A stretch of DNA of 55,433 bases from NCBI GenBank assembly GCA_947625025.1, contig CANQMQ010000011.1, positions 1 to 55,433 on the forward strand, read 5' to 3'. A model generated the notes under the pieces. It saw only the letters and a program-made list of their open reading frames with translations, was not told the origin of the DNA and did not search any database. Below are positions 36,201 through 53,456 of this stretch, piece after piece (position 1 is the stretch's first letter; every line of letters begins with the position of its first letter). This DNA comes from an uncultured Clostridia bacterium. Its GTDB lineage: Bacteria; Bacillota; Clostridia; Christensenellales; Borkfalkiaceae. Both the position numbers and the translations under genes were made by a program.

Positions 36201-39200
36201 TGACCAATCGCCGTTCTGTGCGGGATCGGGCGCAGTTTTGAGTGCACGGCGCATGAATGCGTTGAGCGTTACCTCGTCGCCCCCGATCACGCCGCCTTCG
36301 GCAAAGGTTGCGGCAAACGGAGCCTCCGCTCCCTCGGCGGTATATGCCTTCCCCGTATACGGAAGCGTGAGATTGCCCTCCCGCGCGGCCGCGGCATAAT
36401 TTTCTGCAAGGAGCTCGGGCGTGAGTTTCTTTTGGGTGATGCTCACCTTGCCCGCCGAGCTATCCGCATCGTCCGAAACAAAGGTGATGTAGCGGTTGTC
36501 CTCGTTCTCGTCCTCGGCGAACGCGATGGAGAGATAGTATTTGAAGTTAACATTTCGGCTGAGCTGATATTGGTCGGCGTAAAGTTTTTCTACGGGAACG
36601 CCAAATTCATCGACGACGTTTAGGATGAGGTCTGCGGCCTTCAACTTCTCGATGGCCACCGCGATGCCGCTTGCCGTCCATTCATCGATGCCCGTGATGG
36701 ATTCAATGACGTCCGTGCGGAGGAGCCATGCTTTGAGGGCGGCGGAGAGCGCTTCGTCGTTCCCGCGAAGGTATGTGCCGTATTCCGCGGTGAAGATGGG
36801 CGCCGTATCCTTGATCTTCACCACGATGCCTTCCTGCGTTATGGTAAAGATAAAGTTGAAATCGTAATCCTCGTGATTCTTCGCCGTGATCTTCCCTATC
36901 ACGGTATAGATCGCAACGTCCGCTACGTGCGCGGGGCTGCTCCCCGCAGTATACCCATCCAAGGGCTTCCCGTCTTTGAGGACGGACGTATATTGGATCG
37001 TATACTCCGTCATGCCGCCCGCAAGTTTGGGAACGACGACAAGATCGTATCCCGATGCACGGTAGATGCGCGTACTGCTTCCGCGGAAGCCCGCCGTCAT
37101 GACGGCGTTCTCGATGGTGAATACGCCGCATGTATCCTCGTATCCCCTTCCGCTGTAGGTGGAATTATTCGCATCCTTCCATGCACCCACGAACTCGACC
37201 GTTTGGTTCCCCGTGCCGTCTGAGAAGGTGCCGATGATGGGGTATTTGCCCACATCGCTGTATCCGCCTGCCATGACGGCGGGGGTGTTGAAGGCGAGCC
37301 CGTCCGTGCCGATGAGCTTCAGATCCCCCTCATACTCGAAGCAATCCGTGAGCGGTTTCATGGAGGCGCTGCCGAAGGTGCCGTTGTCGTCCCGAATGCG
37401 GATCTTGACCTTCCTCACCACTACCGTTACGGTGAAGTCGCCGTCCTCGGGCGTCGCAAAGGTATAGTTGGAGTTCGGATCGAGCACGACGCGGAACACG
37501 TTTGTGGAATTCTTGACGTCCGCCGTCGGGGTATCCAATGCCGCAAACGTCGCCAAGACTTCCTCCGAACCGATCACATTTTGGAAGGTGTAATAGATGA
37601 GCTCCGTCGTGGGGGCCTTGCCGTTGTAGACGTAGTCTACCTTGTTGCCGTCGAAGTTCTCCCAAATCACCCTATCGTCCGCCTTGGTGTTCGGGTCGTC
37701 CTGCACGTGCCATTCTACCGTGACGGTACGCTTTTTGAGCTCCACCGAAGTGTTGCAGAGCGCCTGCTCGGTGAGGAGTTCATAGTTCTCCGCACAATCG
37801 CCCGTGAGCGAAAGCCCCGAGATGGCGATCTGCTTGTTTACCCCTGCGGCGGGTGAGACGAAGAAGTAGGTTTCTACGGCAAGCTTCACGCTCCCGGTAT
37901 CCTGCTCCAAGATGCCCATGAACTCCTGCGAGAGGACACGGCCGTTTTGGACGGTCGTCGTGCCGTCATACTCCCTGCCGTCTGCCGTAACTTCGGCGGA
38001 CGACAGCGTGATGCCGCGCCTTTGGATATGGTAGGTGTGCTCCGCCCCGCTTCGGATCTCGTAGTTCTTTTCATGATCCGCGGGCAGGGTGACGGTGAAC
38101 ACATACCCCTCTGCCCTGTAATCTTTGAATGTACCGCTGCAGACGGGCGTAAGCGGCACAGACCCTTCGAGGCTGACAAAGTACGGCTTCACCTGCGCAC
38201 TCTGATCCGTCCCGTCGTAGGTGAACGTCAACTCCTGCCAGACGACGTCTACGAATTTTTTGGTGATTTCGACATTCGATATCTTCCACTCCGTCGTCGT
38301 AAGGGTATAGTTTACCGCACAGTCGCCGCTTAAGATGAAATCCTTGACGATGACGGTGTGCATGCCGACGTCCGCGCCGTCCAATTCGACGGTATACCCC
38401 GTAATGACGGGCGGGAAGGCCTCATCCTCGGGGATCAGCCCCTCGAACGTGACGCCCGATACGTTGACGCCGATGCTCTTGTTGCCGTCGTACTCCTTGT
38501 TGTTTACCGTGATGCCGCCCGTGATGGTGAGCTCGAGCGGGGTGATGTCTGCCTCCGATTCGAAGATATACACATCCCGATCGAGAATGTAGTTCTCGGC
38601 GGCGCTTCCCGTGAGCGTGATCCCCGTTACGGTCACCTGCTTGTGGGTGCCGACATACTTATCGCTGAACGTTGCGGAGCCATACGCTATGCCGAGGTCG
38701 TCCCCGCTCACCTTGTTGTCGAATGTCACCTTGGAGACGTCGAGCGTCGCATTGTGGTTGCCGTCGTAGGGCTTTGTCGCTGCGGTGATGCCGCCCGTGA
38801 TGAGGAGGTGCCGCTCTGCGATATGATAGGTAACCGAAATGGCTGCCGTATCCCCATGCTTGTCGCTCGAGACGGTGATCGTGGCCTGATAATAGCCCAC
38901 TTTCAGGTAGGAATCGGGGGATACTCCCGATGAGAAGTCGTTCGTCTTGCTGTACCGGTATGTGATATCCGTCCAGTGGATCGCATCGATCGCACCCGCG
39001 CCCGAGAGCGCTTCCACGATCGAAGCCGTGTGGCGGGCGGCATCGTATACGCAATCCTCCGCGGTGAGCCTTACCGTCCCCCCGAGGCCGTATTCATGCA
39101 TCTCGCACTTCTCCACCGTGCAGTAGATCTCTGCAACGGAAGGGTCGCTCGGCGATACGCGCACCGCCCAGGTGTGGCCAGGTGCGGCGATGGTGAACGT

Positions 39201-42200
39201 CTGCGGCTCCGCCGTGAACGTCTTGCCGTCGAATTCGATGGATGCGCTGACTTGCTCCTCTCGATCCGTCGTGCAGTCGCCCTCCACGAGCGTCTGTTTC
39301 TCGAACTTCGCATTCTGCGGCGATGTCTTTTCCTTACAGTGCGCGCAGGTGAAGGTCGCAGTCACGCCCGTATAGCCCTCCGCCCCGAGGGTCCAATCCC
39401 ATGCGGGGTTGGGGGCGCCGTCCACTTCGCTCCGATCGTAGAGGTGCTGCCTCAGGTGCCCGAGCCCTTCCTCGATGCTCCAACAGTTGAATTCCTCTCT
39501 GTTGGAAGGGAAGCGGGCCTTCAGCGTCTCGATGTCGCCGATCAATTCTTCAAGTTGGGCAAAGCCCTTATCGTAGCTCTTCGCATTCGCTACGTCGATA
39601 TCGAGATAGATCCCTAAGGAGGCCTTCTCGCCGAGCGCCGCCGAGAGGACTACGCGGATCCCGTCGCCGAGATACACGTCTCCCTTCACTTGCTCGGCCT
39701 TGTGGGTGTTCTCCTTGATGACGGGCTCCCCTTCGAGTTTGAAGTCTCCCGTCGCCGCGAAGTACACGCCGCCGCCGTTGCCGCCCGCGGTATTCTTCTC
39801 AATGACGCCGCCCTTTATTTCGAAGGTAGCCCCCTTGGAGACATACACGCCGCCGCCGTTTTCCTTGGCGGTATTCCCCGAGATCTCGCCGCCCTTCATG
39901 ATAAATTTGCCCGCGCCGATGCCGTGAGCGCCCTCATTCTGCACGAGTACGCCCGCGCCGCTGTGGTTGCTCGTGTTGCCCGAGATCTTGCCGCCCGCCA
40001 TCGTAAACACGCCGCCGTCCTCCACGATCACGGCCGATACGAGGCTATCCGAAGAGGTGTTGATCCCCGAGATCTTGCCGCCGTTCATGTTGAACATGCC
40101 GCCTTCGCCCATGACGCGCACCCCGTATAAGGTGCTTCCCGCCACGCCGACGATGGCGCCGCTCTCCAAGTTGAAGATACCGCCTTCCACCGAAATGCCG
40201 TAGCTTCTCGCCTGCAAATTCCCGCCCGTGCGCGCTTCGCCGTCCTTCATCGTGAACGTCTTTCCGTCCCTTATGATGAAGATACCGTCGCGCGAATTAA
40301 AGTCGTTGCTCAGCGTCCATCCGTTGAGGACGAGCGTCACGCAGGTTGCCTTGGCATTGCTATCGAGGACCAATTGCTCCTTGACGGAGGCATGCGAAAG
40401 CAGCGTAAGGCGCACTCTGCCCTCGGCCTTCAGCGCCTCTTGCCAGCCCGAGGCAAACACCGTGAATAATCGATATTCCTCCCCATTGAGTTGGCCCCAC
40501 TCGTCCTCATGTTGCAGGACCACGACATTGGAGAAAGCTGCCGCGGATACGTGGCAACGGTCGCACTCGAGTACGCCGTCTTTCCACTTCCAATCGTGCC
40601 CCAACGCTTCGACCGTGACGGTGTGTGTGGCCGTATACGGCTTGCCGTTTACGTTGATGGTCACCCGGTATGTAATCGAACCGCTCTCGGTGCAACTTGC
40701 GGCAGTTTGGCTCTTTACGGTCGCCTTTTGGGTCTCTTCGAAGGGCCAATCGCAGTTTTTACACTGCATCGTGAGCTTGGCCTGATCGTCCGCGAGCCAC
40801 AGCCAATTCTCGGTGTCTCCCGTGTATACGAATTCGTGGTCGTGCTTGATCCTGCCGCACGGGGTGCCGTTTACGCCCGTCTCGTCGAAATAGATACAGT
40901 TGAAATCCGCCCTGTCGGTATAGAAGTAGACTCTGAGCGTCTCTCTGGTAATCGAAACCTTATCGTCCACCAACACGAAGAGGCCGTCCCGCGCGTTGGT
41001 GATATCCATGTTGTAATAGAAGTATATCTTGGAGCCTTCCTCGAGCGCACCCGTCACGGCGATGATGCCGTTTCTCACCACTGCCTTATCGGTGGTGTTG
41101 ATGAATACGTTGTTTGCGGTGGAGGCATCCGAAGAATTTACGTTGCTCTCGATCAGCACGTACTTTTGGATACAGAAATCCGCCCTGCAATAGACGCCGC
41201 CGCCGTTGCCGCCCGCGGTGTTTTCCGTCACCGTCAAGCGGGCCGCCGCCGTGAAGGTGCCTGCGGAATACACGCCGCCGCCGTCCCCTTGCGCCTTGTT
41301 GCTCGTCACCTGCAAGTCGCCGCCGCTCACCGATGTACGGGATACGGAATAGATACCGCCGCCATCCAAAGCCGCCTTGTTGCGAGAAATTATAACTTTC
41401 GTACCCGAAAACGTCAGCGTGACGTTGTTGCCGCCCGAATAGATGCCGCCGCCCGCATTCTCGGCCGTGTTATCCAAAATGGACTGCGCCTTCCCCGAGA
41501 ATACGAAGCTACTGCCGTTGCCCGCGATATAGATACCGCCGCCGTTCCCGGATTCCGAATCGGCGACCTTCTTCGCCGTGTTGCCCTCCACCGTGAGATC
41601 GAGCGCCACGGTATTCACGAGGTTGAAATAAATTCCGCCGCCGTTGCCGCCGACCCCGCCTTCGCCTTTGAAATCGCCCGCGGTGTTGTTTTTCGCCGTG
41701 AGCGACGAGCGCAGATCTCTCTCTGCGGGAACGCTCTCCCCTATCGTCACGGGATCGTAGGAAAGCGTAGCGAAAAGATACAGCCCGCCGCCGTTGCCGC
41801 CCGCCGTATTTTCCTCGAGCGTCATGCGGGTCTGATTGCTGTTTATCGTGAGGCTCTGCACATACATGCCGCCGCCCGCGCCCTGCTTGGATGTGTTTTT
41901 GCTTACCGTGAGCGCCGCCGCACCCGTGAGCGTGAGGAGTACGTAGATATAGATGCCGCCGCCGTTGCCCACCGCCTCGTTGTTGCTTACGGTAATATTG
42001 CCGCCCGACATCGTGACATATGCTGCGGAGATCGCGCCGCCGTTCATCTGTGCCTTGTTCTTGTTGAAGATGAGCTCTACATTCGGATCGGTCACGGAGA
42101 AGGTGCTGTTGGTGTAGATCCCGCCGCCGTCGCCGTTCTGCGCCTCGTTGTAGTTGAAGGTGAACTTGCAAGTGCCCTTCGCCTCGAGCCTTGCGGGCGA

Positions 42201-45200
42201 CTGAATGAACATCGCGCCGCCGTACGCCTTGGAAATGTTGTGGTTGAATTCGTAATTGTAGCACTGCAGGGTGACGACCGCGTTGCCCGCCGCAAACACG
42301 CCGCCACCGCCCATCGTCGCCTTGTTTCCTACCGCGCCCGCATTGGCGGTGTTGCGGGAGAGCTCGCCGCTCGGCTCTTCAAAGCCCGTGGACGTACTTG
42401 TAAAGGACAGCGAGCCGCTATCCGCATAGATGCCGCCGCCGCTGTTCGCCGCCGTGTTGTACACGATCTCGCCGCCGCTGATGTTCACCGTGGCGCCGTT
42501 CGAATAGATGCCGCCGCCGTTGCCGTATCCTCTGCCCGTCGCACCCGCTTGGTTGAGCACGGCGTTGTATTTGATCTTGCCGCCGCTGATGTGTGCGAGC
42601 GTACCTGCGCCATCCACATGCAGGCCGCCCCCGCCAAGCGTGGCTTTGTTGCCTTCATCCGCGCTCTCGCCGCCGATGATGCCGCTCAAAAGACTGAAGG
42701 ATACGTTGGCGTTCACGAATACGCCGCCGTATTGCTGTGCCTGGTTGCCGTAGATCTTGCCGTCTGCGATCTCGACATGCGCGGAGACCGTGGCGCAAAG
42801 GCCGCCGCCGTAACGCGTAGCGGTGTTGCCGTGGATCTCGGCGCCGTTCATCGTGAACGTCAGACCGCCGCCCGTAAGGTATACGCCGCCGCCGTCCGTA
42901 GCCGTATTTTCATAGATGTCTGCGCCCTCGTTGAGGAGCACGCTGTAGTTGGTACTCGAGTTGACATAGATCCCGCCGCCGTAGGCGGTGCCGCCCGTAA
43001 CGGTATTGCCGTGGATCTTGATATTGCCTACCTTGAGCTCGCCGCCGCTGCCTATGATATAGACGCCGCCGTTGTTGTTCCTGATCTCGCCGCCGTTGAG
43101 CTCGACAAGGACGTTTGTGCCCCTCAGCCGAATGCCGTAGCCGTTCGTGCAGTGCTGGATCACGCCGCCCTCGATGTGCACCGAGCAATCCGAATAGGCG
43201 GCATTATCCATAAAGACCGCATTGGTGAAGTTGTTCTCCGCGCCTTCCGCATCCGAGCCGATGATGCCGTTTCTCAGCGTGAAATGACTGTTTGAAGCCA
43301 CAAACTGCACGGCGTACGAGCCCACCTGCAATTTGCCGCCGCCCTTCTTATCGTCGAGGATGAAGGAGCCGCCCGCGATGTTGAACATCGCCATGCCCGC
43401 CGTCCCCGTAATGGAACAGCCGTTCAGATCGAGGCGGACATATTTACCCGCTTGCAATGTTTGAACTGCGGCAAGCCTGACGTCCGCGAGGAGCACGATG
43501 GAGGCATAGTTTTCGCCGCTCGAATTCCTCTCGGCCGCCTGCGCCGCCCCCCATGCCAAGTCAAATGTTGCATACACGTCCACGAAGCCCGTCGCTTCGT
43601 CGTTGCTCATGTACACATACGCCACATAGCTTTCGTCCCTTGCCGCATCGTGTCCGCAATTGGTGCAATAGATGGAGCGGTCCTCCGCCTTCCACACCCA
43701 ATTGTGCCCCGAGGCATATTCATGGACCGTGGTGGAAACTTCGAACTTCTGCCCATTGAAGGTGACGGAGGCCGTGTAGATCCTGTCGCCTTCCGTCACG
43801 CAGTCCGCGCCGCCCGTGCTCGAGATGTCCTCGGCAGACTCGGTATGCGATTCAATGCACCCCACATGCGTACAAATGATGGTGATGTTGACGCTCTTGT
43901 AGTCCGGGGACCAATCGCCCTGATCCTTCGTCGCATAGACGTGGGAGGACATATAGGCGAAGAGCTTATCCGCCGCGGGATCGTAGTAGATGCAGTTATA
44001 CGTCTCGCTGTCGTCCGCTTTGAAGTATCCGCGCATCATCTCTGTGGATGTGAGATACCTCGCCGCGCCGTAGAGGAAAATGTTGTCCGGATTTGCCTCG
44101 GTCTCTTCAAACGTCACATAGATGGCGGAAGGCTGAAGGGTGCCGCTCACCACGATCATGCCGTAGTGCCTCGGAAGGTCCACCTCGCTCGTCACGGAGG
44201 TAAAGACGTTGGAAGGCGTATTCACATCCTCGGTGCCCTGTTTGTTGTCCGTGACCTTGACGGTGCCCTGCACGGAAAACACTTGCAGGACGTACACGCC
44301 GCCGCCCTTTCCTTCGGCACGGTTGCCGCTCGCGGTAAAGTTGGCGGACGCGGCGCTCAGCGTCAAGCCTCCCGTGCAGTAGATGCCGCCGCCGTTGCCC
44401 TTGGCAACGTTATTTTCAATGGTCACATTGCCTGCGAGCGTGGGCGTGGCGTCCTCCGAATAGATGCCGCCACCGTTGACGCCCGCCGTGTTTCCCTTCA
44501 CGGTCAAATACTTGGTATTATAGAGGCTAATGACGCCCGCCGAATAGATGCCGCCGCCGCTTCCTCCCGCAGTGTTGTTGACGATATTATAGTCGCGGTG
44601 AAGCTGCGCGTATGCCCCGTTATTATATGTAAAATTCAGTGCGCCCGCCGAATAGATGGCGCCGCCGCTTCCTCCCGCCTCGTTCTCTTCGAGGGTGATA
44701 TTGCCCGCAAATTGGATGGTGCCCGTGCCGTCGCCCGCAATGGCGCCGCCCTTATCTTCGGCAGTATTTTGCTTGAACGTCGCCGCGGAGTAGTCGGTAA
44801 AGTAGATGTCCCCGCCCGCCTGATAGAAGGCGCCGCCGTCGTTTGCCGCGCTGTTGGACGTAAACGTGACAGCGCTGTGGAAGATGATATTGGCATTGGT
44901 GTAGATGGCGCCGCCGTTGCCCTGCGAGGCATATTCGGAGGGATCCAAGGCCTCCGAAGAGGTCTCCGCCTTGTTGTTGGTAAAGGTAAACGTGCCCTTG
45001 GTCGCAGTTCCGATCACTGCGCCGAAGGTGATAGCCGTGCGCGCAAGGATGGCGCCGCCGTTCTGGTGCGCGGTGTTCTCTTCGAAGGTCATTTCGCCTT
45101 GGAACGTCACGCCACTCGCGTAGTTGACGACCATGCCGCCGCCCAAATTGGCCTCGTTTTGGGTGAAGAACATCTTGCCCGTTTCGGCTTCGGAGAGTAC

Positions 45201-48200
45201 GCCCGTCACATATAATCCGCCGCCCGCCCTCGCTCGGTTGTGCGTGAGGTCTATCCTGCCGTTGACGACCATGGAGCCTTCGGTGTAAATCCCGCCGCCG
45301 TTGACGCGGGCCGTGTTGTCCTTGAGGAGAACGACTGCGCCCTCCCCTTCGAAGAGTTGGACGTTGACGGTAGCCCTCGTCACATAAATGCCGCCGCCGC
45401 TTCCTGTCGCTTGGTTGGAGGAGATCTCCGCCACGGGATTGCTCGAGGAGGAACGGGTGAAATTCAGCGTTCCGCCCGCGATGTGAATACCGCCGCCGTA
45501 CACTCCCGTGTTATTCGTGATCTTTACGCCGTCGCTTACCGTAAGCACACCTGCGTTCATGTAGAGGGCGCCGCCGCGGTCTGCCGTGTTGTGGCTGATC
45601 TCGCCGACTTCCCCCGTTTTCCGCAAGGTCATTGTGCCGATATTGACGATCCCGCCGCCAATGCCATAGTAGAGCGGGAGGTTGTCTTTCTCCGTGACGG
45701 TATTGTAGCTGATCTCGCCGCCCGAGAACTCAAACACGCCCGTATTGTAGACGCCGCCCGCCTCCCGATCCGCGGTGTTGTGGGAAATGGAGCCGCCGCT
45801 CATCGCGACGTTTGCCCTATTTGAATAGAAGCCGCCGCCCACGCAGTTGGATTCGTTGTGCTCGATGCGCGTGCCGTCGAGAATGTTCACCCTGTGAATG
45901 TCCGCGAAGATCCCGCCGCCGCCCAAGCCGGTGGCTTTCGTCCCGAGCGTTTCTGCGGGGATCACCACCTTATTGTGCGCGATGAGAATTTCCTCGCTCC
46001 CGCCGCCGAACGTGGTCGTCATGACGTGCTCCTCGGCGCCGCTCTCGGAGGTAAGGTAAAGCCCGCCGCCGCTGTTATATGCCGTGTTGTTTGTGATCTC
46101 ACCCTTTTCGATTCTATTGGTGTGGGCGAGCGCAGAGCCACTTTCAAGCCTCAAGAAGATGCCGCCGCCCAAGGTCGCGGTGTTGCCCGTCACTTTGCCG
46201 CCCGTCATTGTAAACGTGCCGCAACAATAGATCCCGCCGCCCCAGCTATATTGTCCGCCATCCGCGGTGTTGCCGCTGATCTCGCCGCCCGACATCGTGA
46301 ATATGCAAATGTTATAGGCGATCCACACGCCGCCGCCGGGTTGGACCGAATGGTTACCCGAAATCGTGCCGCCCTTCAACTCGAATGTACCGTATTCAAT
46401 GTTCACGCCGCCATATGTTTGATTTCCAGAGATCGTGCCGCCGTACATGATGAATTTCGCATCATTGGCACTTTTCGCAACATTGGTGACCCACACGCCG
46501 CGGTTCGAGTTGTCGCAGATCGTCGCGCCGTCGTACATCCTGAAGGTGCCCTTGTTGACGATCACGCCGTTCACGCCGTTTTTCACGCTGCCGCCCTTGA
46601 AGATGAACACGCAGTCGTTTGCCGTGCCGTCTAAGAGGATGCCGTTGCTGTTGACGATCGCGTCGCTCTTTCCCACACTCGTATCCGTAAGGGTGAACTC
46701 GGATTCCGCGCCCACCATGCGGAATACATCCTGGGCCGCATTGAAGCCCTTGATTTCGAACCCGTTGAGGTCCAAACAGACAAAGACGTTCGCGGGAATT
46801 TGCAGTTGGGAGGCCGTGGGCGTGAAACTATTCAATACATAGATGTTGACGGGCTTTTCCTTTTCGGTGGGGTGCCCCATCGCCGCATTCCAGACCTCGG
46901 GCGAGAGGGCGGCATACACCTGCATCTCCCCATCGAATTCCACGGCAATTACCATGCCGTCGTCCGTTGCCAAATAGTCGCAGACCGAGCACTTTACGGT
47001 GTGATCGGTAAAATGATACTGATGCCCCGCCGCGGGTGTAATCACTTCCGCAACGTCGGTATAGGTCTTTTGATAGATGCCCGTGCCGAGGGTCAGCGTC
47101 ACCGTGTACTTATCTACCCCATCCTCCGTGCAGGTGGCTTTTTTGATGTCCACCCGGATCTCTTCGCCCTCGATGGTGCCCGTCTTGGTGAGCGTCGCCG
47201 CTTCGTCCTTGCAGTGCGGGCAGGCAAGCGTCGCCGTCACCGAAGAATGGTCGGCGTCCCAAGCGAATTCGGGGGTTGCGGGATAGGCATGCCTTGTCAT
47301 ATAGTAGTACAGGCTCGTATCCTCATACAGGCACTCCTGCCCCTCCTCGCCGTTTTTGATCTTATCCGAGAAGAACACTTTCCGCGCGGTATCGATACCC
47401 AAAAACGAATCGTCCTTGCAATAGGCAAACACATCTTGCCGCTCGCCGTTTGCCTCGTTGGCGGCGAGATAGATGCCGATGCGGCTCTCATTATGCAGAC
47501 GCTCCGTTACAATGACGACGTTCGGCGTCTCTGTAGGCCGCCCCGCGAAGCCCGTACAGCTGAGGTAGAGGTCGCTCTGCACATTCTCCTTGCCGTCGCA
47601 AGTTGCGGTATTGTTTTCAATGTTGACTTTATTCTGTACTTGGATGATGCCGAGGACGCGTACGCCGCCGCCATAGCCGCTCCTTACCGTGCCCGCCTTA
47701 TTGCCCGTGATGCTGACGGGGGAAGTGCCGCTCGTGGGCGCGACGAATGCGAGGTTGGCTCCCGCGTAGATGCCGCCGCCGTCCTCGCCTGCTTCGTTCC
47801 CTGTTACCGTGAGGGAGGCGTTTGCGCCGTTAAAGGTAACGTTGCCCATCGCATAGAGGCCGCCGCCCGAGAGCGTAACCTCGTTGCCGCGGAACGTGAC
47901 GTTGGAATTTGCCCCGAACACGACTGTGGTACGGATGTATGCGCCGCCGCCCGAGGAGGCCGTGTTACCTTCAAAGTTGAAAGCTACCGAATGCGCGGCG
48001 GAGGTGATATCCAATGCGGTGGTGGTATAGAGGCCGCCGCCCTCCTTGCGGGCAGTGTTCCCTTTGAACGTGAAGGGCTCCTTGCTATCGTATTCCGCGC
48101 TTACGTTCAGCCAGCCGTTCACATAGATGCCGCCGCCGAGATCTGCCTTGTTGCCCTCGAACACGGTCGGGCCGTAAACGGACATATTGCCGTTTGAATA

Positions 48201-51200
48201 GAGGCCGCCGCCCTTGCTCTCGACGTTGTAGCCCGCCTCGTTGTTCTTGATTTCGCCGCCGTAGAGACGGGGGGTATAGTTCGCATTCGTCTGCGAGCAG
48301 TAAATGCCGCCGCCGTCCTGCCCCGCCGTGTTGCCGAGGATCAGGGCGCCGTCGTGCACGTCGAGTATGGTTTCCGAACAGATACCGCCGCCACTCGTTT
48401 CTGCAGTGTTTTCTTGGATGGTGACGTTGGCGAAAGTTACCTCCATTCTGGTGTAGATGCCGCCGCCGTTGCCGTTGGCGCCTGCGGCCTTGACGGCCTT
48501 ATTCTTTGTGATGATGAGATCTCCGCTCGAAGCCGCTTCAAACGTGACGGCGCCGCTATAAACAAACAGGCCGCCGCCGTTATATGCGGTGTTTTCTGCG
48601 ATCTTGCCGCCCGTGAGCTTCAGCGGCGTGAGATTGTAAATGCCGCCGCCGTTGTAAGCAAAGTTATGGCTGATCTCCACGTTTCCCGAAATGCTTACGG
48701 TGCCGCCGCTGTTGTAAATGCCGCCGCCGTGCGTTTCGGCGTTCGTGAGGTCGCCGCTGCCCGAAGGCGTGACGATCCTATTGCCCTCGCCCTCACCGCC
48801 AATGACTGCCTCGCCCGATATGTTGAGGGTGCCGTTCCACACATAGATGCCCGCGCCGTAGCTTTCCGCCGTGTTGCCCGAAATTTTGCCGCCCGAGATG
48901 TTGACGGTCGGCAGGTTGTAGAGCTCCAAGCCGCCGCCACACCACTTGACCGAGTTATAGCTGATCTCGCCGCCCGTCATGTTGAACCTTGTATTCGGGT
49001 TGGATACGCGCACACCGCCGCCGCCATCGCCCCACCTGAGATCGAGTCTGCTGTTTTGCCTCGTGATTTGGTTCTTTGTGATCGCGCCGCCGCTCATTTC
49101 AAAGGTGCCGCCGTCCACGCGCACGCCGCCGTCCGTGCAGGCCGTGATCTTGCCGCCCGACATCGTGAACATGCTATCCGCACCCGTCATGACGACGGCC
49201 GTCGCCATCTTCCGAATCGTCCCCCTCTTCAGGGTGAAGAAGCCCACCGTATTGAGGACCTGTACGCCCAAGCTGCCGCTCTCGATCGCACCCATGCCTG
49301 AGATGGAGGTATCGTCTATCACGAAGTGTGCGCGCCCGCCGAGGGTGAACATCTCGCCGCCCTTGCCCGTGACCGTCTTTCCGTTGAGGTCGAGCGTCAC
49401 GTAGTCGTGCGCATCGGTGAGCTCGAGCTTCGAATCTATCATCACATCCTTGAGGAGGAAGATCTTCACGTTCCCCTCGACGGTCGCCATGAGGCTTGCG
49501 GCGCCCGCCCATGCGGCTTCGAGCGTATCAAAGACGGTGATGGCCTCCCCTCCCGAAGTCTTATCGATGAGGGCGGCCTCGCCCATGTCTGCCGCATCGA
49601 GCGTCGAACACTGTTTGCATTCGAGGCCGTGGTTGCCCTCCGTCCACGTCCACTTGTGGCCGAGGGCGGGCACCGTGACATGATGGGTCACCGTTACCGT
49701 CTTTTCCTGCTTTTCTGAGACGTCGTAGATTTTGACTTGTGCGCTGTATTCATCATATCCTTCGGCTTCGCAGGTGGCTTCTACCGATGTTGTATACGTC
49801 GCCGCATAGGCCTGAAGGTCGCTTGTGCCGTTGCCGGGATAGCCGTAATCGCCGTCCTCCAAGGGGCGGTTATACGTCTTGCCGCAACCGAGCGAGCAAG
49901 TCTGCTCCACTTCTACCGTTGCGGATTTTTTGGCCTCCGTCACCTCCCAGGTGTACACGGGCTCGTAAAAGCTGTGTTCGGAAGAGAGGATAATTGTGTT
50001 GATTTCCACCCCCGTCGCCGTAAGGTTGGGATGCAGGCAGGGATACGTCTCTTCATCGTCCGCAAAGAAATTGCTGTGCAACCGTGTAAGGTCTGCCAAA
50101 TTATACGCGGCATTGAATTTGACGACGATGTTGTTGGGGTTGTAAGTCGCGTTGGGCACAAAGTAGATGCCGATCCTGCTATCGCCCGTCAGCCCCGCGC
50201 TTCCCACATAGATTGCACCGAAGTTGCTATCCGCATTCTCTCTATCCGCCACGGCGATATTTCTGCGCGATTCGAGGTAGACATCCGAAGCGACATCGCT
50301 TTCCTGCGTATTTTTCTCCACATGGACGTGTCCGCCGACGCACATACAGGTATTGATACCCAACCAAATGCCGCCGCCGATGCCCCCCGCGGTGTTTTCC
50401 CGCACGTCGATCTCCTCATTTAGGTTCGGCGCATAGAAACTGCTGCCGTTCACATATACGCCGCCGCCGTCGCCCCCTGCACGGTTTTTCTGCACCGTGA
50501 GCGTCTGCAACGTGGTGCTTGTGGCGCTGACTGCGGCGAAGCTGACGTAGCTACCCGCATATACGCCGCCGCCGTCTCCCCCTGCGCTGTTGCCCACAAA
50601 GGTCGCCGTGCCGCCGAAGATGGTATTTGCGAGAAAGAGATCCAGCGAGCCCGTATTCGCGGGCCCCTCCGAATACAAGCCGCCGCCGTTGCCGCTCGCC
50701 GTGTTGCCCTTGCCCTCTGCGCCGAAGCGGACGGTACCCGTCACGGTCAATTTCTGCGTCATATTCCAACCGCCGCCGTTGCCCGCGGTCGCCCGGTTGG
50801 ACATGAAGTTTACGGTGGCGTTGACATAGACGAACCCCGCGGAGGAGCTGATCGCGCCGCCGTTCCCGCTCGCCGTGTTGCTGTCAAAATTGACGGTGTA
50901 CCTGTTGGTATCCACGTTTGGCGCGGTGCTCTGGAATGTGACGGCGCCCGCCGCATAGATCGCGCCGCCGTCGCCCGCGGTCGCCTTGTTGTTTTGAAAC
51001 GTTACCCATTCGCCCGGTTCCGCCGCACTTTCTGTCCACGCCTGAAAGAGCACCGTGCCGTTCGCATAGAGGCCGCCGCCCGCCTTTGCCGTGTTGTCCG
51101 AGATGAGGAGCTTGTTCTTGTTCTGCGGCACCGTGAAGGCGTGTCTGTTGGTGGTGCTCCCATTGTTCATATCGGCGAACACATATACGCCGCCGCCGTA

Positions 51201-53048
51201 GCCGTTCGGGGCGCTGTTGTGCGAGATCTCGCCGCTGCTCAAGTCCATGTAATAGTAGCCCGCATAGCTATCTACGGCTTCCGCAATGCAGATGCCGCCG
51301 CCGTTGCCCGAAGTGCGCTCGGCGGGGTTGCCTTCCGTAACGTTGTAAGTAATTTTGCCGCCATCGAGATAGATGCCGCCATGATAGCTATAGAGGCCGC
51401 CGCCGCTGTCCTTTGCCGTGTTGTGCGTGATTTCGCCGCCCGTCATTGTGAGGGCGTAGCATGCCCGTCCGGCGGAAGGATAATTTACCGATACGCCGCC
51501 GCCGCGATTTGCGGTGTTGTGCTCTATCTTGCCGCCCGACATGGTGAAGCTATAATTCGCCAACACGCCGCCGCCGAGCGAATTTTCCGCCTCGTTGTAG
51601 CTGATGAGCGTGCCTTCCGCGATCTCCACGGTGGCGACCGTGTATATACCGCCGCCGCCCGCGTTGTATGCAGTTGCGTCTGCTACTGCCGTTGCGATGT
51701 TGCCGTCTCCGTCTTTGCCGCCGATGGTCATGCCGTACAGCTTGACGGTGCCGCTATAAACAAACATGCCGCCGCCCGAGTAGGCTGTGTTTTTGATGAT
51801 CTTCCCGCCGTTGAGATGTTCGGCTGCCGTTCCGTTTGTAATGTAAATTCCGCCGCCCTGAGCCACGGTCGGCGCATCGGTGCATTCCGCCCTATTCGAG
51901 GAAATGACGACTTCGCCATCTCCCTTGCTCGAAGTCATGGTGCCGCCGTCCGCGTAGATGCCGCCGCCGAGGGCGCTTATAGTCTCCGATGTGGCGACGT
52001 TGTGGGAGATCGTGCCGCCCTCCAACTTGAGGGTGCCGCGATAGAGATAGATACCGCCGCCGAACCGTGCCTTGTTGGCCTTGTCCGCAGTCTCGCCGCC
52101 GATGACGGCATCCTTTTGCAACGTGAACGTGGCGCCCGTGCTGATGAATACGCCGCCACCGCCGTTCTGGGTCGATGTGGTCAGCGTCTCGTTTCCGTAG
52201 ATTTCGCCGCCGCTCATCGTGAAGGTTGTAGCTCCGTCGAGATATACGCCGCCGCCCGCACCGTTGTTGGCGGTATTCTTGTTTTTGCTGATCTCGCCGC
52301 CCGTCATATTGGCAACGACATAATCAGTCGCAAACCGTACCGCCGCAACGGCACCTTCATTTCCCGTAATTTTCCCGCCCGTGATGTCCACGCGCGAAGT
52401 ACCTTGCGCGAGGATGGCGCCCTGCGTGCAGCCCGTGATCTTGCCGCCCGCAAGGGTAAAATGCGCCGTACTCGTTCTCTCCATTTGCACGCCGACATTT
52501 GCGGTCGCCGTAATGGCGCCGTTTTGGTCCGCCGTCGTATCCGTGAGCATGATATCCCCGCCGTTGAGGGTGAACACGGGCTTCGTCTCGTTTTTCAGGG
52601 TGTTGCCGTTGAGGTCGAAAACCACATGGAGATTTGCGTTCGTATCAACCGTCGTAGTCAGCGTATCGGCCGCGGTCGTCTCCTTCAACAACTGCACTTC
52701 GATGGGGTTGTTCGGGTCTGCACCGTCGAGCTGGGCCGTGAGATACGTCCACCCCTCGTCGATGGTATCAAAATAGTAGACGGCAACCGTGAGCGGCTCC
52801 GCCTGCGTCATGACGGAGATTTTGACGACGCTGTTGTCAGGGTCTTGCTCATGGGCCGCGTCCACGTTTTCCACTGCTTCCCGATCCGCATACGAAGCAT
52901 ACGCCTCCGCATGTGCGCCAACCGTCGGGCTCTCATTTGAAGCGCTTGGCCCAAACAGCAGGGCGCCCACCGCCACCGTGCACAGCATGAGTGCCGTGAG
53001 CAGGCCGAGAAGTACCTTCCTGAATTTCTGAATGTGAAAATGTTTCAT
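33216..53048 (-). CDS. Giant beta-helix/MBG surface protein
   Basis: 6610 residues in one open frame, 36% of the window. Signal peptide at about 1-48 (KVLLGLLTALMLCTVAVGALLF). About residues 77-4620 hold five repeating modules. Each opens with a segment like VYATFDLAWGAA...VRLDLNG, continues as a right-handed beta-helix with GGGIY/SGG turns, and closes with a zinc-ribbon-like linker GH.W.W...C..C (near 1131, 2009, 3115, 4150 and 4623). About 4745-6390 is a run of MBG/YDG-like Ig folds (KPYDG...AENYIL). About 6400-6560 is a charged helical region. The C-terminus is LPDFG, a hydrophobic span, and RKRK, resembling a sortase signal with F for T or a plain membrane anchor. Likely an adhesin, and its promoter lies in an invertible segment upstream. 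Confidence 0.93.
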   Translation of the reverse strand: MKHFHIQKFRKVLLGLLTALMLCTVAVGALLFGPSASNESPTVGAHAEAYASYADREAVENVDAAHEQDPDNSVVKISVMTQAEPLTVAVYYFDTIDEGWTYLTAQLDGADPNNPIEVQLLKETTAADTLTTTVDTNANLHVVFDLNGNTLKNETKPVFTLNGGDIMLTDTTADQNGAITATANVGVQMERTSTAHFTLAGGKITGCTQGAILAQGTSRVDITGGKITGNEGAVAAVRFATDYVVANMTGGEISKNKNTANNGAGGGVYLDGATTFTMSGGEIYGNETLTTSTQNGGGGVFISTGATFTLQKDAVIGGETADKANKARFGGGIYLYRGTLKLEGGTISHNVATSETISALGGGIYADGGTMTSSKGDGEVVISSNRAECTDAPTVAQGGGIYITNGTAAEHLNGGKIIKNTAYSGGGMFVYSGTVKLYGMTIGGKDGDGNIATAVADATAYNAGGGGIYTVATVEIAEGTLISYNEAENSLGGGVLANYSFTMSGGKIEHNTANRGGGVSVNYPSAGRACYALTMTGGEITHNTAKDSGGGLYSYHGGIYLDGGKITYNVTEGNPAERTSGNGGGICIAEAVDSYAGYYYMDLSSGEISHNSAPNGYGGGVYVFADMNNGSTTNRHAFTVPQNKNKLLISDNTAKAGGGLYANGTVLFQAWTESAAEPGEWVTFQNNKATAGDGGAIYAAGAVTFQSTAPNVDTNRYTVNFDSNTASGNGGAISSSAGFVYVNATVNFMSNRATAGNGGGWNMTQKLTVTGTVRFGAEGKGNTASGNGGGLYSEGPANTGSLDLFLANTIFGGTATFVGNSAGGDGGGVYAGSYVSFAAVSATSTTLQTLTVQKNRAGGDGGGVYVNGSSFYAPNLNEEIDVRENTAGGIGGGIWLGINTCMCVGGHVHVEKNTQESDVASDVYLESRRNIAVADRENADSNFGAIYVGSAGLTGDSRIGIYFVPNATYNPNNIVVKFNAAYNLADLTRLHSNFFADDEETYPCLHPNLTATGVEINTIILSSEHSFYEPVYTWEVTEAKKSATVEVEQTCSLGCGKTYNRPLEDGDYGYPGNGTSDLQAYAATYTTSVEATCEAEGYDEYSAQVKIYDVSEKQEKTVTVTHHVTVPALGHKWTWTEGNHGLECKQCSTLDAADMGEAALIDKTSGGEAITVFDTLEAAWAGAASLMATVEGNVKIFLLKDVMIDSKLELTDAHDYVTLDLNGKTVTGKGGEMFTLGGRAHFVIDDTSISGMGAIESGSLGVQVLNTVGFFTLKRGTIRKMATAVVMTGADSMFTMSGGKITACTDGGVRVDGGTFEMSGGAITKNQITRQNSRLDLRWGDGGGGVRVSNPNTRFNMTGGEISYNSVKWCGGGLELYNLPTVNISGGKISGNTAESYGAGIYVWNGTLNISGEAVIGGEGEGNRIVTPSGSGDLTNAETHGGGIYNSGGTVSISGNVEISHNFAYNGGGIYNLTPLKLTGGKIAENTAYNGGGLFVYSGAVTFEAASSGDLIITKNKAVKAAGANGNGGGIYTRMEVTFANVTIQENTAETSGGGICSETILDVHDGALILGNTAGQDGGGIYCSQTNANYTPRLYGGEIKNNEAGYNVESKGGGLYSNGNMSVYGPTVFEGNKADLGGGIYVNGWLNVSAEYDSKEPFTFKGNTARKEGGGLYTTTALDITSAAHSVAFNFEGNTASSGGGAYIRTTVVFGANSNVTFRGNEVTLSGGGLYAMGNVTFNGANASLTVTGNEAGEDGGGIYAGANLAFVAPTSGTSPVSITGNKAGTVRSGYGGGVRVLGIIQVQNKVNIENNTATCDGKENVQSDLYLSCTGFAGRPTETPNVVIVTERLHNESRIGIYLAANEANGERQDVFAYCKDDSFLGIDTARKVFFSDKIKNGEEGQECLYEDTSLYYYMTRHAYPATPEFAWDADHSSVTATLACPHCKDEAATLTKTGTIEGEEIRVDIKKATCTEDGVDKYTVTLTLGTGIYQKTYTDVAEVITPAAGHQYHFTDHTVKCSVCDYLATDDGMVIAVEFDGEMQVYAALSPEVWNAAMGHPTEKEKPVNIYVLNSFTPTASQLQIPANVFVCLDLNGFEIKGFNAAQDVFRMVGAESEFTLTDTSVGKSDAIVNSNGILLDGTANDCVFIFKGGSVKNGVNGVIVNKGTFRMYDGATICDNSNRGVWVTNVAKSANDAKFIMYGGTISGNQTYGGVNIEYGTFELKGGTISGNHSVQPGGGVWIAYNICIFTMSGGEISGNTADGGQYSWGGGIYCCGTFTMTGGKVTGNTATLGGGIFLRLESGSALAHTNRIEKGEITNNTAYNSGGGLYLTSESGAEEHVMTTTFGGGSEEILIAHNKVVIPAETLGTKATGLGGGGIFADIHRVNILDGTRIEHNESNCVGGGFYSNRANVAMSGGSISHNTADREAGGVYNTGVFEFSGGEISYNTVTEKDNLPLYYGIGGGIVNIGTMTLRKTGEVGEISHNTADRGGALYMNAGVLTVSDGVKITNNTGVYGGGIHIAGGTLNFTRSSSSNPVAEISSNQATGSGGGIYVTRATVNVQLFEGEGAVVLLKDNTARVNGGGIYTEGSMVVNGRIDLTHNRARAGGGLYVTGVLSEAETGKMFFTQNEANLGGGMVVNYASGVTFQGEMTFEENTAHQNGGAILARTAITFGAVIGTATKGTFTFTNNKAETSSEALDPSEYASQGNGGAIYTNANIIFHSAVTFTSNSAANDGGAFYQAGGDIYFTDYSAATFKQNTAEDKGGAIAGDGTGTIQFAGNITLEENEAGGSGGAIYSAGALNFTYNNGAYAQLHRDYNIVNNTAGGSGGGIYSAGVISLYNTKYLTVKGNTAGVNGGGIYSEDATPTLAGNVTIENNVAKGNGGGIYCTGGLTLSAASANFTASGNRAEGKGGGVYVLQVFSVQGTVKVTDNKQGTEDVNTPSNVFTSVTSEVDLPRHYGMIVVSGTLQPSAIYVTFEETEANPDNIFLYGAARYLTSTEMMRGYFKADDSETYNCIYYDPAADKLFAYMSSHVYATKDQGDWSPDYKSVNITIICTHVGCIESHTESAEDISSTGGADCVTEGDRIYTASVTFNGQKFEVSTTVHEYASGHNWVWKAEDRSIYCTNCGHDAARDESYVAYVYMSNDEATGFVDVYATFDLAWGAAQAAERNSSGENYASIVLLADVRLAAVQTLQAGKYVRLDLNGCSITGTAGMAMFNIAGGSFILDDKKGGGKLQVGSYAVQFVASNSHFTLRNGIIGSDAEGAENNFTNAVFMDNAAYSDCSVHIEGGVIQHCTNGYGIRLRGTNVLVELNGGEIRNNNGGVYIIGSGGELKVGNIKIHGNTVTGGTAYGGGIYVNSSTNYSVLLNEGADIYENTATDGGGVYLTGGGLTFTMNGAEIHGNTATRYGGGLCATVSAHVEIADGKIYGNQAQQYGGVFVNANVSFSLLSGIIGGESADEGNKATLGGGGLHVDGAGTLAHISGGKIKYNAVLNQAGATGRGYGNGGGIYSNGATVNISGGEIVYNTAANSGGGIYADSGSLSFTSTSTGFEEPSGELSRNTANAGAVGNKATMGGGGVFAAGNAVVTLQCYNYEFNHNISKAYGGAMFIQSPARLEAKGTCKFTFNYNEAQNGDGGGIYTNSTFSVTDPNVELIFNKNKAQMNGGAISAAYVTMSGGNITVSNNEAVGNGGGIYIYVLLTLTGAAALTVSKNTSKQGAGGGMYVQSLTINSNQTRMTLEENTAGGNGGGLYLFATLSYDPVTIGESVPAERDLRSSLTAKNNTAGDFKGEGGVGGNGGGIYFNLVNTVALDLTVEGNTAKKVADSESGNGGGIYIAGNGSSFVFSGKAQSILDNTAENAGGGIYSGGNNVTLTFSGTKVIISRNKAALDGGGIYSVSRTSVSGGDLQVTSNKAQGDGGGVYSAGTFTAAARLTVTENTAGGNGGGVYCRADFCIQKYVLIESNVNSSDASTANNVFINTTDKAVVRNGIIAVTGALEEGSKIYFYYNMDITNARDGLFVLVDDKVSITRETLRVYFYTDRADFNCIYFDETGVNGTPCGRIKHDHEFVYTGDTENWLWLADDQAKLTMQCKNCDWPFEETQKATVKSQTAASCTESGSITYRVTINVNGKPYTATHTVTVEALGHDWKWKDGVLECDRCHVSAAAFSNVVVLQHEDEWGQLNGEEYRLFTVFASGWQEALKAEGRVRLTLLSHASVKEQLVLDSNAKATCVTLVLNGWTLSNDFNSRDGIFIIRDGKTFTMKDGEARTGGNLQARSYGISVEGGIFNLESGAIVGVAGSTLYGVRVMGEGGMFNMNGGKISGINTSSDSLVSAVIVEDGGVFTMAGGKISGNTSNHSGAGVLVQNEGAHGIGAGKFIMKGGEISGNTAKENGGGVYVSKGATFEIKGGVIEKNTAGGNGGGVYFAATGDFKLEGEPVIKENTHKAEQVKGDVYLGDGIRVVLSAALGEKASLGIYLDIDVANAKSYDKGFAQLEELIGDIETLKARFPSNREEFNCWSIEEGLGHLRQHLYDRSEVDGAPNPAWDWTLGAEGYTGVTATFTCAHCKEKTSPQNAKFEKQTLVEGDCTTDREEQVSASIEFDGKTFTAEPQTFTIAAPGHTWAVRVSPSDPSVAEIYCTVEKCEMHEYGLGGTVRLTAEDCVYDAARHTASIVEALSGAGAIDAIHWTDITYRYSKTNDFSSGVSPDSYLKVGYYQATITVSSDKHGDTAAISVTYHIAERHLLITGGITAATKPYDGNHNATLDVSKVTFDNKVSGDDLGIAYGSATFSDKYVGTHKQVTVTGITLTGSAAENYILDRDVYIFESEADITPLELTITGGITVNNKEYDGNKSIGVNVSGVTFEGLIPEDEAFPPVITGYTVELDGADVGMHTVIVKDFILSGDCAVNYTLTTTEWKISNVEITKKFVDVVWQELTFTYDGTDQSAQVKPYFVSLEGSVPLTPVCSGTFKDYRAEGYVFTVTLPADHEKNYEIRSGAEHTYHIQRRGITLSSAEVTADGREYDGTTTVQNGRVLSQEFMGILEQDTGSVKLAVETYFFVSPAAGVNKQIAISGLSLTGDCAENYELLTEQALCNTSVELKKRTVTVEWHVQDDPNTKADDRVIWENFDGNKVDYVYNGKAPTTELIYYTFQNVIGSEEVLATFAALDTPTADVKNSTNVFRVVLDPNSNYTFATPEDGDFTVTVVVRKVKIRIRDDNGTFGSASMKPLTDCFEYEGDLKLIGTDGLAFNTPAVMAGGYSDVGKYPIIGTFSDGTGNQTVEFVGAWKDANNSTYSGRGYEDTCGVFTIENAVMTAGFRGSSTRIYRASGYDLVVVPKLAGGMTEYTIQYTSVLKDGKPLDGYTAGSSPAHVADVAIYTVIGKITAKNHEDYDFNFIFTITQEGIVVKIKDTAPIFTAEYGTYLRGNDEALSAALKAWLLRTDVIESITGIDEWTASGIAVAIEKLKAADLILNVVDEFGVPVEKLYADQYQLSRNVNFKYYLSIAFAEDENEDNRYITFVSDDADSSAGKVSITQKKLTPELLAENYAAAAREGNLTLPYTGKAYTAEGAEAPFAATFAEGGVIGGDEVTLNAFMRRALKTAPDPAQNGDWSQHYGWPVNAGTYRYMVGDMDGISALSGDHALNYTVDSAYLIVVIAPKALASPLDENNMKSVEYDGTYHRPEIASGEGYIVTTEENPRVSGTYTFSVKLAETNYSVDTVGSNPGEAYAVYNYAWAEELPSNVTISDDDLTLSATFVIEKKIVSPADILWTEDRFVYDGKDHASEIRATLQGVPGDGTFELIVVTTQFMNCKEEGYEFRAELSSDAAVNYILDVGQSYTKTYHMQRATYDMSAVAWSYSSPFNYNNTLYNVYLVGLPAGVIAQFEGAEATDAGTYTAKVKGFIYDETNYEAPKFTMELTWVIRKAAVTMPVVSASLFTYNGKPQSYYIIGEGDEDFYTIAGNTRTDAGSQQVTVTLRDKANYRWAGTEETSEDLVSTFTINRASYALFWAEDTFEYTGSDQSAKVYAWFFDFDGRQHKLTAVLQGADGFINHNNGNAYTFIVDETKLDGNYDFSGKSHEYHIAKKAVQRPAEDGTAFYYTGQPLTYHIAQSELYTVSGNVYTEVGDYAVTVALRDPDNYKWAFGNSDALTYSFSIAPGQNEILDFTISGWTYGEEPAVPSASAKFGVPVFTYCDSPTGAFTSYPPANAGTWYVKATVVGSTQYMQAEKVISFEISKKSVELVWAADEFTYNGRDQSNKVTASLNMVNGNVVSLPATTRGAFLLHNGGAKYVFVADTTGYENYEFLNPTHEYTMKRAPLTVYGVRALAKLYDGGTAATLNDPSMWTVYGLYGTDTVTVTGTGVFDGADVGLHTVVATLTLSGSASDNYVITNSEIELTGVEIGISKDLALEALRRAEQAAKDYASSRDGLTDAQKEELRAEIEHEREVAEKDISDATTSDGILDALDGGRARMDAASKKTFTGSEPTEPEPTGPETDDLAKEKQDAKDKIDDEAQKAKDEVDSDTDLSDEEKDEAKKNIEEEAEKAKDKIDGAKSKNEVEGERDKGIQNIQSAADASLPDFGVPFLLTGIEIILTVVFAAVIFRKRK

Positions 53049-53182: not shown

Positions 53183-53213
53183 ACGTACGCGGAATATTCC
53201 ATTCCGCGTACGT
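53183..53213 (-). repeat. Left inversion site
   Basis: Palindrome with 13-bp arms (53183-53195 and 53201-53213) around a 5-bp core that reads ATTCC on the plus strand. In inverted orientation it matches the right site at 24 of 31 positions, including a 16-base identical centre GGAATGGAATATTCCG. On the minus strand it is followed by TTTTT (53183-53179), so it could also act as a terminator. Confidence 0.85.
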
Positions 53214-53262
53214 AATTCTTAATACATGTTCATAAAAATGTCTGAAATTTTCAAAAATCCTC

Positions 53263-53291
53263 TTGATTTTTTACCCGACATAAAGTATAAT
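53263..53291 (+). promoter_or_regulatory. Promoter P1 in the invertible segment, pointing away from the adhesin
   Basis: TTGATT (53263-53268), 17 bp, TATAAT (53286-53291). After inversion it would lie on the minus strand with its -10 at 53353-53348, about 300 nt from the adhesin start codon. Confidence 0.75.
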
Positions 53292-53335
53292 GCAAAGAAG
53301 AAGCGGGCCGAAGGACGATTTTTCGACAAAATCTC

Positions 53336-53355
53336 GTTAAGATTTGTTAAGATTT
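53336..53355 (+). repeat. Tandem 10-bp repeat in the invertible segment
   Basis: GTTAAGATTT occurs twice head to tail, one DNA turn apart, between P1 and P2. The spacing suits a dimeric or cooperative DNA-binding protein. Confidence 0.55.
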
Positions 53356-53376
53356 CGTTTTGGACACAATTTCCTA

Positions 53377-53405
53377 TTGCTATAAAATTGAATAAGTGAT
53401 ATGAT
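53377..53405 (+). promoter_or_regulatory. Promoter P2 in the invertible segment, pointing away from the adhesin
   Basis: TTGCTA (53377-53382), 17 bp, TATGAT (53400-53405); its start would be only about 14 bp before the right site. After inversion the -10 would lie at 53239-53234 facing the adhesin, about 180 nt from its start codon. Confidence 0.6.
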
Positions 53406-53425
53406 GGTACCAGGAAACTAAAAAA

Positions 53426-53456
53426 GTGTACATGGAATGGAATATTCCGTGTACAC
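53426..53456 (+). repeat. Right inversion site
   Basis: Palindrome with 13-bp arms (53426-53438 and 53444-53456, one G.T mismatch) around the 5-bp core GGAAT on the plus strand, opposite to the left site. The seven differences from the left site are all transitions and mostly occur in pairs that preserve arm symmetry. Confidence 0.85.

Follow-up and report, generated by a model that had tools for sequence, protein, structure and literature searches.

The analyzed window comprises 55,433 nucleotides and represents the entire contig C11 of an uncultured Clostridia bacterium (Borkfalkiaceae), whose 1.59-Mb genome assembly consists of 41 contigs and is 99.6% complete. A giant surface-protein gene and a tyrosine recombinase gene, both located on the minus strand together with a 634-amino-acid (aa) gene, flank a short intergenic region bounded by two inverted sites (Table 1). 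The 6610-residue adhesin reading frame was found as given in the preliminary description, and its product carries a hydrophobic N-terminal leader (judged by eye) and a C-terminal hydrophobic stretch with an RKRK tail. The adjoining 634-aa partner is probably co-transcribed with the adhesin. A 96-aa C-terminal stretch of this partner is 98% identical to a paralog (G000:C20:17994-18803; L036) situated behind a second large surface-protein gene, whereas the remainder of the two proteins has diverged, suggesting a recent exchange between the two operons. The recombinase gene had been described as complete, and it indeed translates to an intact protein, the C-terminal end of which adjoins the right site. 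Six residues (R141, K182, H243, R246, H269, and Y279), which we take to be the catalytic ones, were invariant in a nine-sequence alignment. The enzyme scored far below the NCBIfam equivalog cut-offs for XerC/XerD (63 vs 335.15 and 46.8 vs 329.6), placing it outside the Xer/dif group, and its membership in the PF00589 family separates it from serine invertases of the Mpi type. A second recombinase of the same genome (C2), 57% identical to the first, could act on the window sites instead of the 299-aa enzyme.

Table 1. Features of the putative switch and its neighboring genes in the window
Feature	Position	Strand	Description
634-aa protein	31299..33203	-	N-terminal hydrophobic stretch, PE repeats; 12 bp downstream of the adhesin
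6610-aa surface protein (adhesin)	33216..53048	-	Chlam_PMP repeats, YDG and DUF1542 domains
Left recombination site (putative)	53183..53213	+	13-5-13 palindrome, centre TATTCCA
Invertible segment (putative) with promoter-like sites	53214..53425		212 bp; 243 bp centre to centre; 22.9 turns at 10.61 bp
Sigma-70-like promoter TTGATT-17-TATAAT	53263..53291	+	Consensus match; points away from the adhesin
Promoter-like TGGACA-16-TAAAAT	53361..53388	+	Consensus match; overlaps 53377..53405
Promoter-like TTGCTA-17-TATGAT with TG extension	53377..53405	+	Consensus match
Right recombination site (putative)	53426..53456	-	Inverted copy, 7-bp centre same as left site
Tyrosine recombinase, 299 aa	53495..54394	-	Phage_integrase and Phage_int_SAM_3

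The two inverted 31-bp sites proposed between the adhesin and recombinase genes were confirmed, whereas the length of the enclosed DNA, put earlier at about 238 bp, was corrected to the 212 bp listed. Direct comparison of the inverted repeats yielded 27-nt arms with 89% complementarity, separated by 216 nt. Each site is also palindromic in itself, a feature absent from the preliminary description, with 13-bp arms surrounding a 5-bp asymmetric middle (or 12-7-12 when a 7-bp centre is counted); the middles of the two sites are identical only after one of them is inverted. Both sites matched the arm consensus at 20 of 20 positions. The 27-nt core pattern (at most three mismatches) was found twice in the window, once per strand, and in none of 100 shuffled sequences; across the whole genome, it matched at four places, including the two in the window, with no match for the reversed-pattern control. 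The left site scored as a terminator-like hairpin on the plus strand in a terminator scan. On the minus strand (53213-53173), the adhesin leader of the predicted ON state would include the site hairpin (13 bp) with a short run of U residues after it, a possible attenuator that the terminator scan did not list on that strand. A search of the switch region against Rfam returned two sub-threshold matches (34.3 and 32.2 bits vs thresholds of 60 and 57), which were dismissed as palindrome artefacts.

The enclosed DNA had been described as promoter-bearing, in agreement with the three promoter-like matches that our consensus scan placed inside the segment. Five such sites were detected between 52900 and 54750 compared with 1.9 (standard deviation, 1.1) in shuffled sequences, all being consensus matches only. 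The window thus contains inverted repeats around a promoter, identified by consensus only, upstream of a gene. All promoter-like sites within the segment point toward the plus strand, away from the adhesin, indicating that the assembled state would be OFF; from the left site to the adhesin start, the scan gave no promoter-like match on the minus strand. Inversion would give predicted 5′ leaders of about 293 and 179 nt.

Seven other genomes of the genus encode full-length orthologs of the recombinase (67-72% identical), and G082 encodes a partial one. The expectation that relatives keeping the recombinase would also keep the inverted arrangement was checked in part: a site pair lies directly beside the recombinase in three of the seven genomes (G097, G059, and G040), as well as beside the partial ortholog of G082, whereas none was found directly beside it in the examined sequence of G052, G061, G051, and G072, the last of which has a half-site at its contig edge. 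In G097, G059, and G040, the site pair, promoter, and surface gene are placed as in the window, the genes encoding proteins of 1545, 1058, and 1773 aa, respectively, with leader sequences. The gene starts and upstream flanks of G059 and G097 are nearly identical, and the segment between the sites is reversed. Alignment of the G097 segment scored 58 reversed and 20 forward against G059 (58 being reached by 0 of 500 shuffles), 43 and 28 against the window (1 of 500), and 30 and 21 against G040, where the signal was weak (15 of 500). The segments of G059, G040, and the window agreed with one another in the forward direction (70, 53, and 42; 0, 0, and 1 of 500 shuffles). Judged by promoter direction, G097 is ON, and G059, G040, and the window are OFF.

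Reversed cassettes were also observed among near-identical copies within single genomes. The inner segments of L155 and L156 in G066, which are different loci, matched at 98% in reversed orientation with 60-bp flanks at 100%. Similarly, L182 of G095 was reversed relative to L179, L180, L181, and L184 (inner segment, 93-98%; 60-bp flank, 100%), to L177 (82%; flank, 98%), and to L178 (97%; flank, only 60%), and L239 and L241 of G212 were 100% identical in reversed orientation with a 98% flank. The comparison of L262 with L226 in G355 was a weaker case (80% for both inner segment and flank), and many other near-identical pairs had the same orientation (e.g., in G050, G049, G069, and G088). Opposite orientations were therefore found between orthologous loci and between near-identical cassettes of one genome, and the window itself was seen in a single orientation. 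In the window genome, contigs C17 and C20 share their first 77 bases and diverge inside a site, and C26 and C39 likewise share their first 77 bases, which hold a site, before diverging; these contig pairs were rejected as proof of both orientations because a duplicated cassette end fits equally well. Two 138-bp cassettes on contig C51 of G254 (774-936 and 11577-11739) are arranged as mirror images with approximately 10.6 kb between them, so a larger inversion between them is possible.

To define the wider distribution of the sites, we screened 103 genus genomes with two patterns (GG-type and TAGA-type, at most two mismatches) and 398 family genomes with a third. GG-type matches occurred in 33 and TAGA-type matches in 27 of the 103 genomes (reversed-pattern controls, 2 and 0), and family-wide matches in 69 of the 398 genomes, covering 12 of 18 genera (control, 6); given this background, some lone two-mismatch matches are probably due to chance. 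The GG-type site at C20:9643 in the window genome, which has no partner within 700 bp, lies at the start of the second large surface-protein gene. The recombinase family, delimited at E <= 1e-50 (a threshold chosen after the list had been inspected), was present in 49 of the 103 genomes. TAGA-type sites were found in 27 of these 49 genomes and in none of the 54 genomes without the recombinase (Fisher p 1e-11), and 31 of the 33 genomes with GG-type sites also possessed it, the exceptions being G006 and G042. The intact 299-aa enzyme and this genus-wide association with the sites are the features expected of a genome-encoded site-specific recombinase. A pair was located within 600 bp of the recombinase C-terminal end at 13 of 30 recombinase loci, with further pairs at 629 bp (L028) and on the N-terminal side (L027). 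The other 17 loci had no pair within 600 bp of that end (L012, L015, and L025 have less than 600 bp there), indicating that adjacency is common but not the rule. In G095, strong recombinase matches are located on C8 and C15 and seven prepilin cassettes on other contigs, from which action in trans can be presumed. A two-class model, in which separate recombinases would serve GG-type and TAGA-type arms, fitted the approximately 70% identical orthologs only loosely and was not adopted in view of G042, G064, G073, G088, and G095, which have GG-like arms without such an ortholog.

The centres of the sites were then compared within and between loci. A position-by-position count over 49 groups, obtained under a detection rule that favors similar centres, gave identical centres in 47 of the 49, with 96-100% agreement within pairs at positions -3 to +3. 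Between loci of the same set, agreement at positions -1 to +1 was 25-30%; at 8-12 bp from the centre, within-pair agreement was about equal to that of random loci, with some within-pair excess at 4 and 7 bp. Pairing by arms only, which repeats the count free of the bias toward similar centres, yielded 86 pairs from 82 sources, 63 of which had identical 5-bp and 7-bp centres in inverted orientation and none in direct orientation (reversed-pattern control, 0). Most of the 23 pairs with non-matching centres combined a good site with a weak one; L137 and L147 each have two good sites at the family spacing with differing centres. In other genera (62 loci, 83 pairs), 42 pairs had inverted-identical centres and 2 had direct ones (control, 0). 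Because the 7-bp centre is usually matched within a pair and variable between loci, it appears to mark the crossover, and such a conservation pattern is expected if strands are exchanged inside the 7-bp centre. Locus-specific centres acting universally as strict insulation were refuted by G088 and G095, in which several cassettes share one centre.

Centre-to-centre spacing, searched over 40-700 bp, fell into discrete classes. Pairs with matching centres were spaced at 126-129, 136-140, 145-150, 158-162, 169-172, 181-182, 200-203, 211-212, and 243 bp, and one 555-bp pair was excluded from the fits. Three of 66 early pairs, one a chance pair at 671 bp and the other two alternative partners, had been removed before a first spacing analysis. 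For 47 genus groups below 300 bp, the best period was 10.70 bp with R 0.75. The out-of-genus set was reduced from 42 to 32 distinct pairs in 26 groups by removing 10 same-segment repeats. With the period fixed beforehand from the genus, these 26 groups reached R 0.815, a value attained by none of 20000 jittered sets (jitter, at most 8 bp). The joint fit of 73 groups gave a period of 10.61 bp (bootstrap, 10.49-10.82), a phase of 0.2 bp, and R 0.77, compared with a best R of 0.47 among 3000 jittered sets; 68 of the 73 spacings deviate by no more than 2 bp from an integral number of turns. The period varied with the subset from 10.54 bp (other genera) to 10.92 bp (genus, below 200 bp). The window spacing, the longest of the 73 fitted, is within 1.3 bp of 23 turns. 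These sequence data are most naturally read as a looping requirement, in which sites separated by 12-23 turns can pair across the loop only when they face in the same direction. The whole-turn spacing might instead have been inherited from a few ancestral cassettes, with no constraint acting on it: the cassettes are related, certain spacing classes recur within clades, and grouping by shared 8-mers removes common descent only incompletely from these statistics. We consider this explanation unlikely, given nine separate spacing classes at steps of approximately 10.6 bp with nearly empty gaps between them, the replication in other genera at the genus-fixed period, and an R of 0.82 in the genus when one spacing was retained per distinct centre (n = 26).

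Collectively, the inverted palindromic sites, the internal promoter-like sequences, the adjacent recombinase, and the reversed segment at the orthologous G097 locus support the earlier proposal of an invertible promoter switch, and the window element is very probably a phase-variation switch in which a recombinase-inverted promoter segment controls the adhesin. From the arrangement of the sequence, we infer that the 299-aa recombinase acts on these sites, that the segment inverts at the window locus, and that expression is ON or OFF according to orientation. In the proposed mechanism, the recombinase would bind the four palindromic arms, the short intervening DNA would loop to pair both sites, and strand exchange within the 7-bp centre would invert the segment. 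The promoters would fire away from the adhesin in the assembled orientation and, after inversion, into the adhesin and its membrane partner. The window cassette would then be one member of a family that in relatives stands before prepilin and other surface-protein genes.

A switch of the same design that is now locked in this strain would account for the single orientation seen and for a spacing at the extreme of the fitted range. This reading overlaps with the preferred one, so their probabilities need not sum to unity, but the identical centres, fully matched arms, intact recombinase, and near-integral number of turns make a locked state rather improbable. Considerably less probable still is that the sites are attL/attR-like sequences or transposon ends of a mobile element carrying an integrase-like gene. 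The enzyme does belong to the phage-integrase family, with distant phage homologs (2060 phage records, all below 60% identity), and several near-identical dispersed cassette copies occur in G095, G088, G050, and G049; however, integrative elements have direct repeats flanking the integrase gene, whereas matching centres here were inverted rather than direct (63 vs 0 pairs in the genus; 42 vs 2 in other genera), and in the window and at the orthologous loci, the recombinase lies next to the pair but outside it, and what the pair encloses is promoter-like sequence bordering a surface gene. That the palindromes are terminators or regulator-binding operators, inversion playing no part, is the most doubtful account, as the terminator-like hairpin at the left site fits it but it would predict neither centres identical within pairs and free between loci, with arms 8-12 bp out about equally alike, nor reversed cassettes behind near-identical flanks.

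The fim switch of Escherichia coli (FimB/FimE) is an invertible promoter with its recombinases encoded next to it and controls a surface organelle. Its likeness to the promoter switch proposed here concerns the working principle. The fim switch is also mentioned in the available parts of PMC2784873 and PMC5903667. The preliminary description had named cwpV of Clostridioides difficile, controlled by RecV, as a matching promoter switch. As described in the available text of PMC2784873, the two systems share a tyrosine recombinase, inverted repeats, and a large surface protein downstream, but the mechanism differs: the cwpV promoter lies upstream of and outside the inverted region, with a terminator in the OFF orientation proposed as the control, and recV is not adjacent to cwpV, whereas the promoter-like sites of the window lie inside the segment and the recombinase is adjacent. 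RecV is required for some, though not all, switches of C. difficile (available part of PMC5903667). The accessible portion of PMC9286219 describes a switch of C. difficile that carries its promoter internally, so such promoter switches are already known in Clostridia. The invertons of PhaseFinder studies and of PMC11892184 resemble the window element in their short inverted repeats, promoters inside many of them, nearby recombinase genes, and surface genes downstream. Inverton group 139, which according to the accessible text is found mainly in Clostridia and is linked to a tyrosine-type recombinase group (invertase group 35), may be the same family as the window site, the comparison being one of description rather than motif; the words helical, periodic, pilin, and spacing are absent from the main text of that paper as available.

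For the internal eliminated sequences (IES) of Paramecium, which are short excised DNA, the available part of PMC3464196 reports lengths that track the helical repeat and interprets this as a constraint from looping, although that system is a eukaryotic transposase-derived excision with a period of about 10.2 bp and no phase switch. The reference list of the same paper includes a study on the assembly of the Hin invertasome that deals with DNA looping and helical repeat. Our literature search, covering titles and abstract openings with subscription papers mostly outside its reach, returned neither a paper that describes natural inversion switches as helically quantised nor one on prepilin repertoires under invertible promoters in Clostridia. 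Invertible promoters as such are already known. The window element, well supported as an invertible promoter switch, belongs among the invertons; its site is distinctive, and we did not find its length rule described. The combination of palindromic arms, a matched 7-bp centre, and whole-turn spacing could serve as a signature for proposing switches from assemblies without reads. The spacing also suggests that DNA twist may limit which short switches work; the twist limit on short DNA has been treated with plasmid constructs and in Paramecium, as far as the available portions of the published sources extend.

Type IV prepilin genes were located beside 27 of the 63 genus cassettes, in ten genomes. 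For 2 of the 27, the gene lies beyond the contig end and was assigned via the cassette and its flank; the unpaired contig-end sites L170, L174, and L183, as well as L136 and three G099 loci, were left out of this count. The remaining neighbors included larger proteins with prepilin-like leaders, proteins with other leaders, and a recurrent ABC-transporter ATPase. A Pfam check covered three prepilins and the ATPase; an NCBIfam check covered the ATPase, four prepilins, and one large protein, the last of which reached its best named pilin models only weakly. Type IV pilus/type II secretion-type ATPases scored above cut-off in all six prepilin-cassette genomes among the seven genomes tested, as two intact neighboring genes in five of the six. 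The window genome had no prepilin match and only a below-cut-off match for a pilus-type ATPase, so the switch seems to be used there for large adhesins instead. By promoter direction, 5 of the 27 prepilin cassettes are ON, and no genome has two ON; mutual exclusion of prepilins was nevertheless rejected as a conclusion, since so few ON states are too sparse to distinguish from independent rare ones.

Taken together, these sequence comparisons lead us to favor, with some reservation, a model in which one recombinase family runs promoter-inversion cassettes throughout a family of uncultured gut Clostridia, with whole-turn spacing (10.61 bp, phase about 0), a free 7-bp centre serving as pairing address, and adhesins or variant type IV prepilin sets being switched, at most one prepilin cassette being ON per assembled genome. 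If this model is true, the genomes would preserve, in their cassette lengths, a natural record of the mechanics of DNA looping in vivo. The findings also suggest that gut Clostridia have type IV pilus repertoires subject to phase variation.

In the 5′ leaders of prepilin genes behind cassettes (L138, L142, L144, L155, L159, L171, L177, L179, L185, L130, L154, and L173), 75 nt upstream of the prepilin ATG, a common hairpin recurs, the CGTCCC loop of which is invariant. Four of its seven predicted pairs were changed on both sides among the 12 aligned sequences, and no Rfam family reached threshold for the ten loci searched; the hairpin is possibly a cis-regulatory RNA. At L138, L156, and L158, the OFF orientation directs a terminator-like hairpin toward the gene (judged by eye). 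The ABC-transporter ATPase, with the N-terminus MLEVIDFSKKYRNNKNYSA or one close to it, is found beside L046, L054, L147, L151, L160, L163, and L166, of which the Pfam check covers L151 only; its recurrence suggests that the switch may also control an exporter. At L057 (G000:C9:16115-16278), a 139-bp cassette lies between two genes, presumably encoding a glycosyltransferase-like membrane protein (judged by eye) and a methionyl-tRNA-synthetase-like protein, and its promoter-like sites score alike in both directions.
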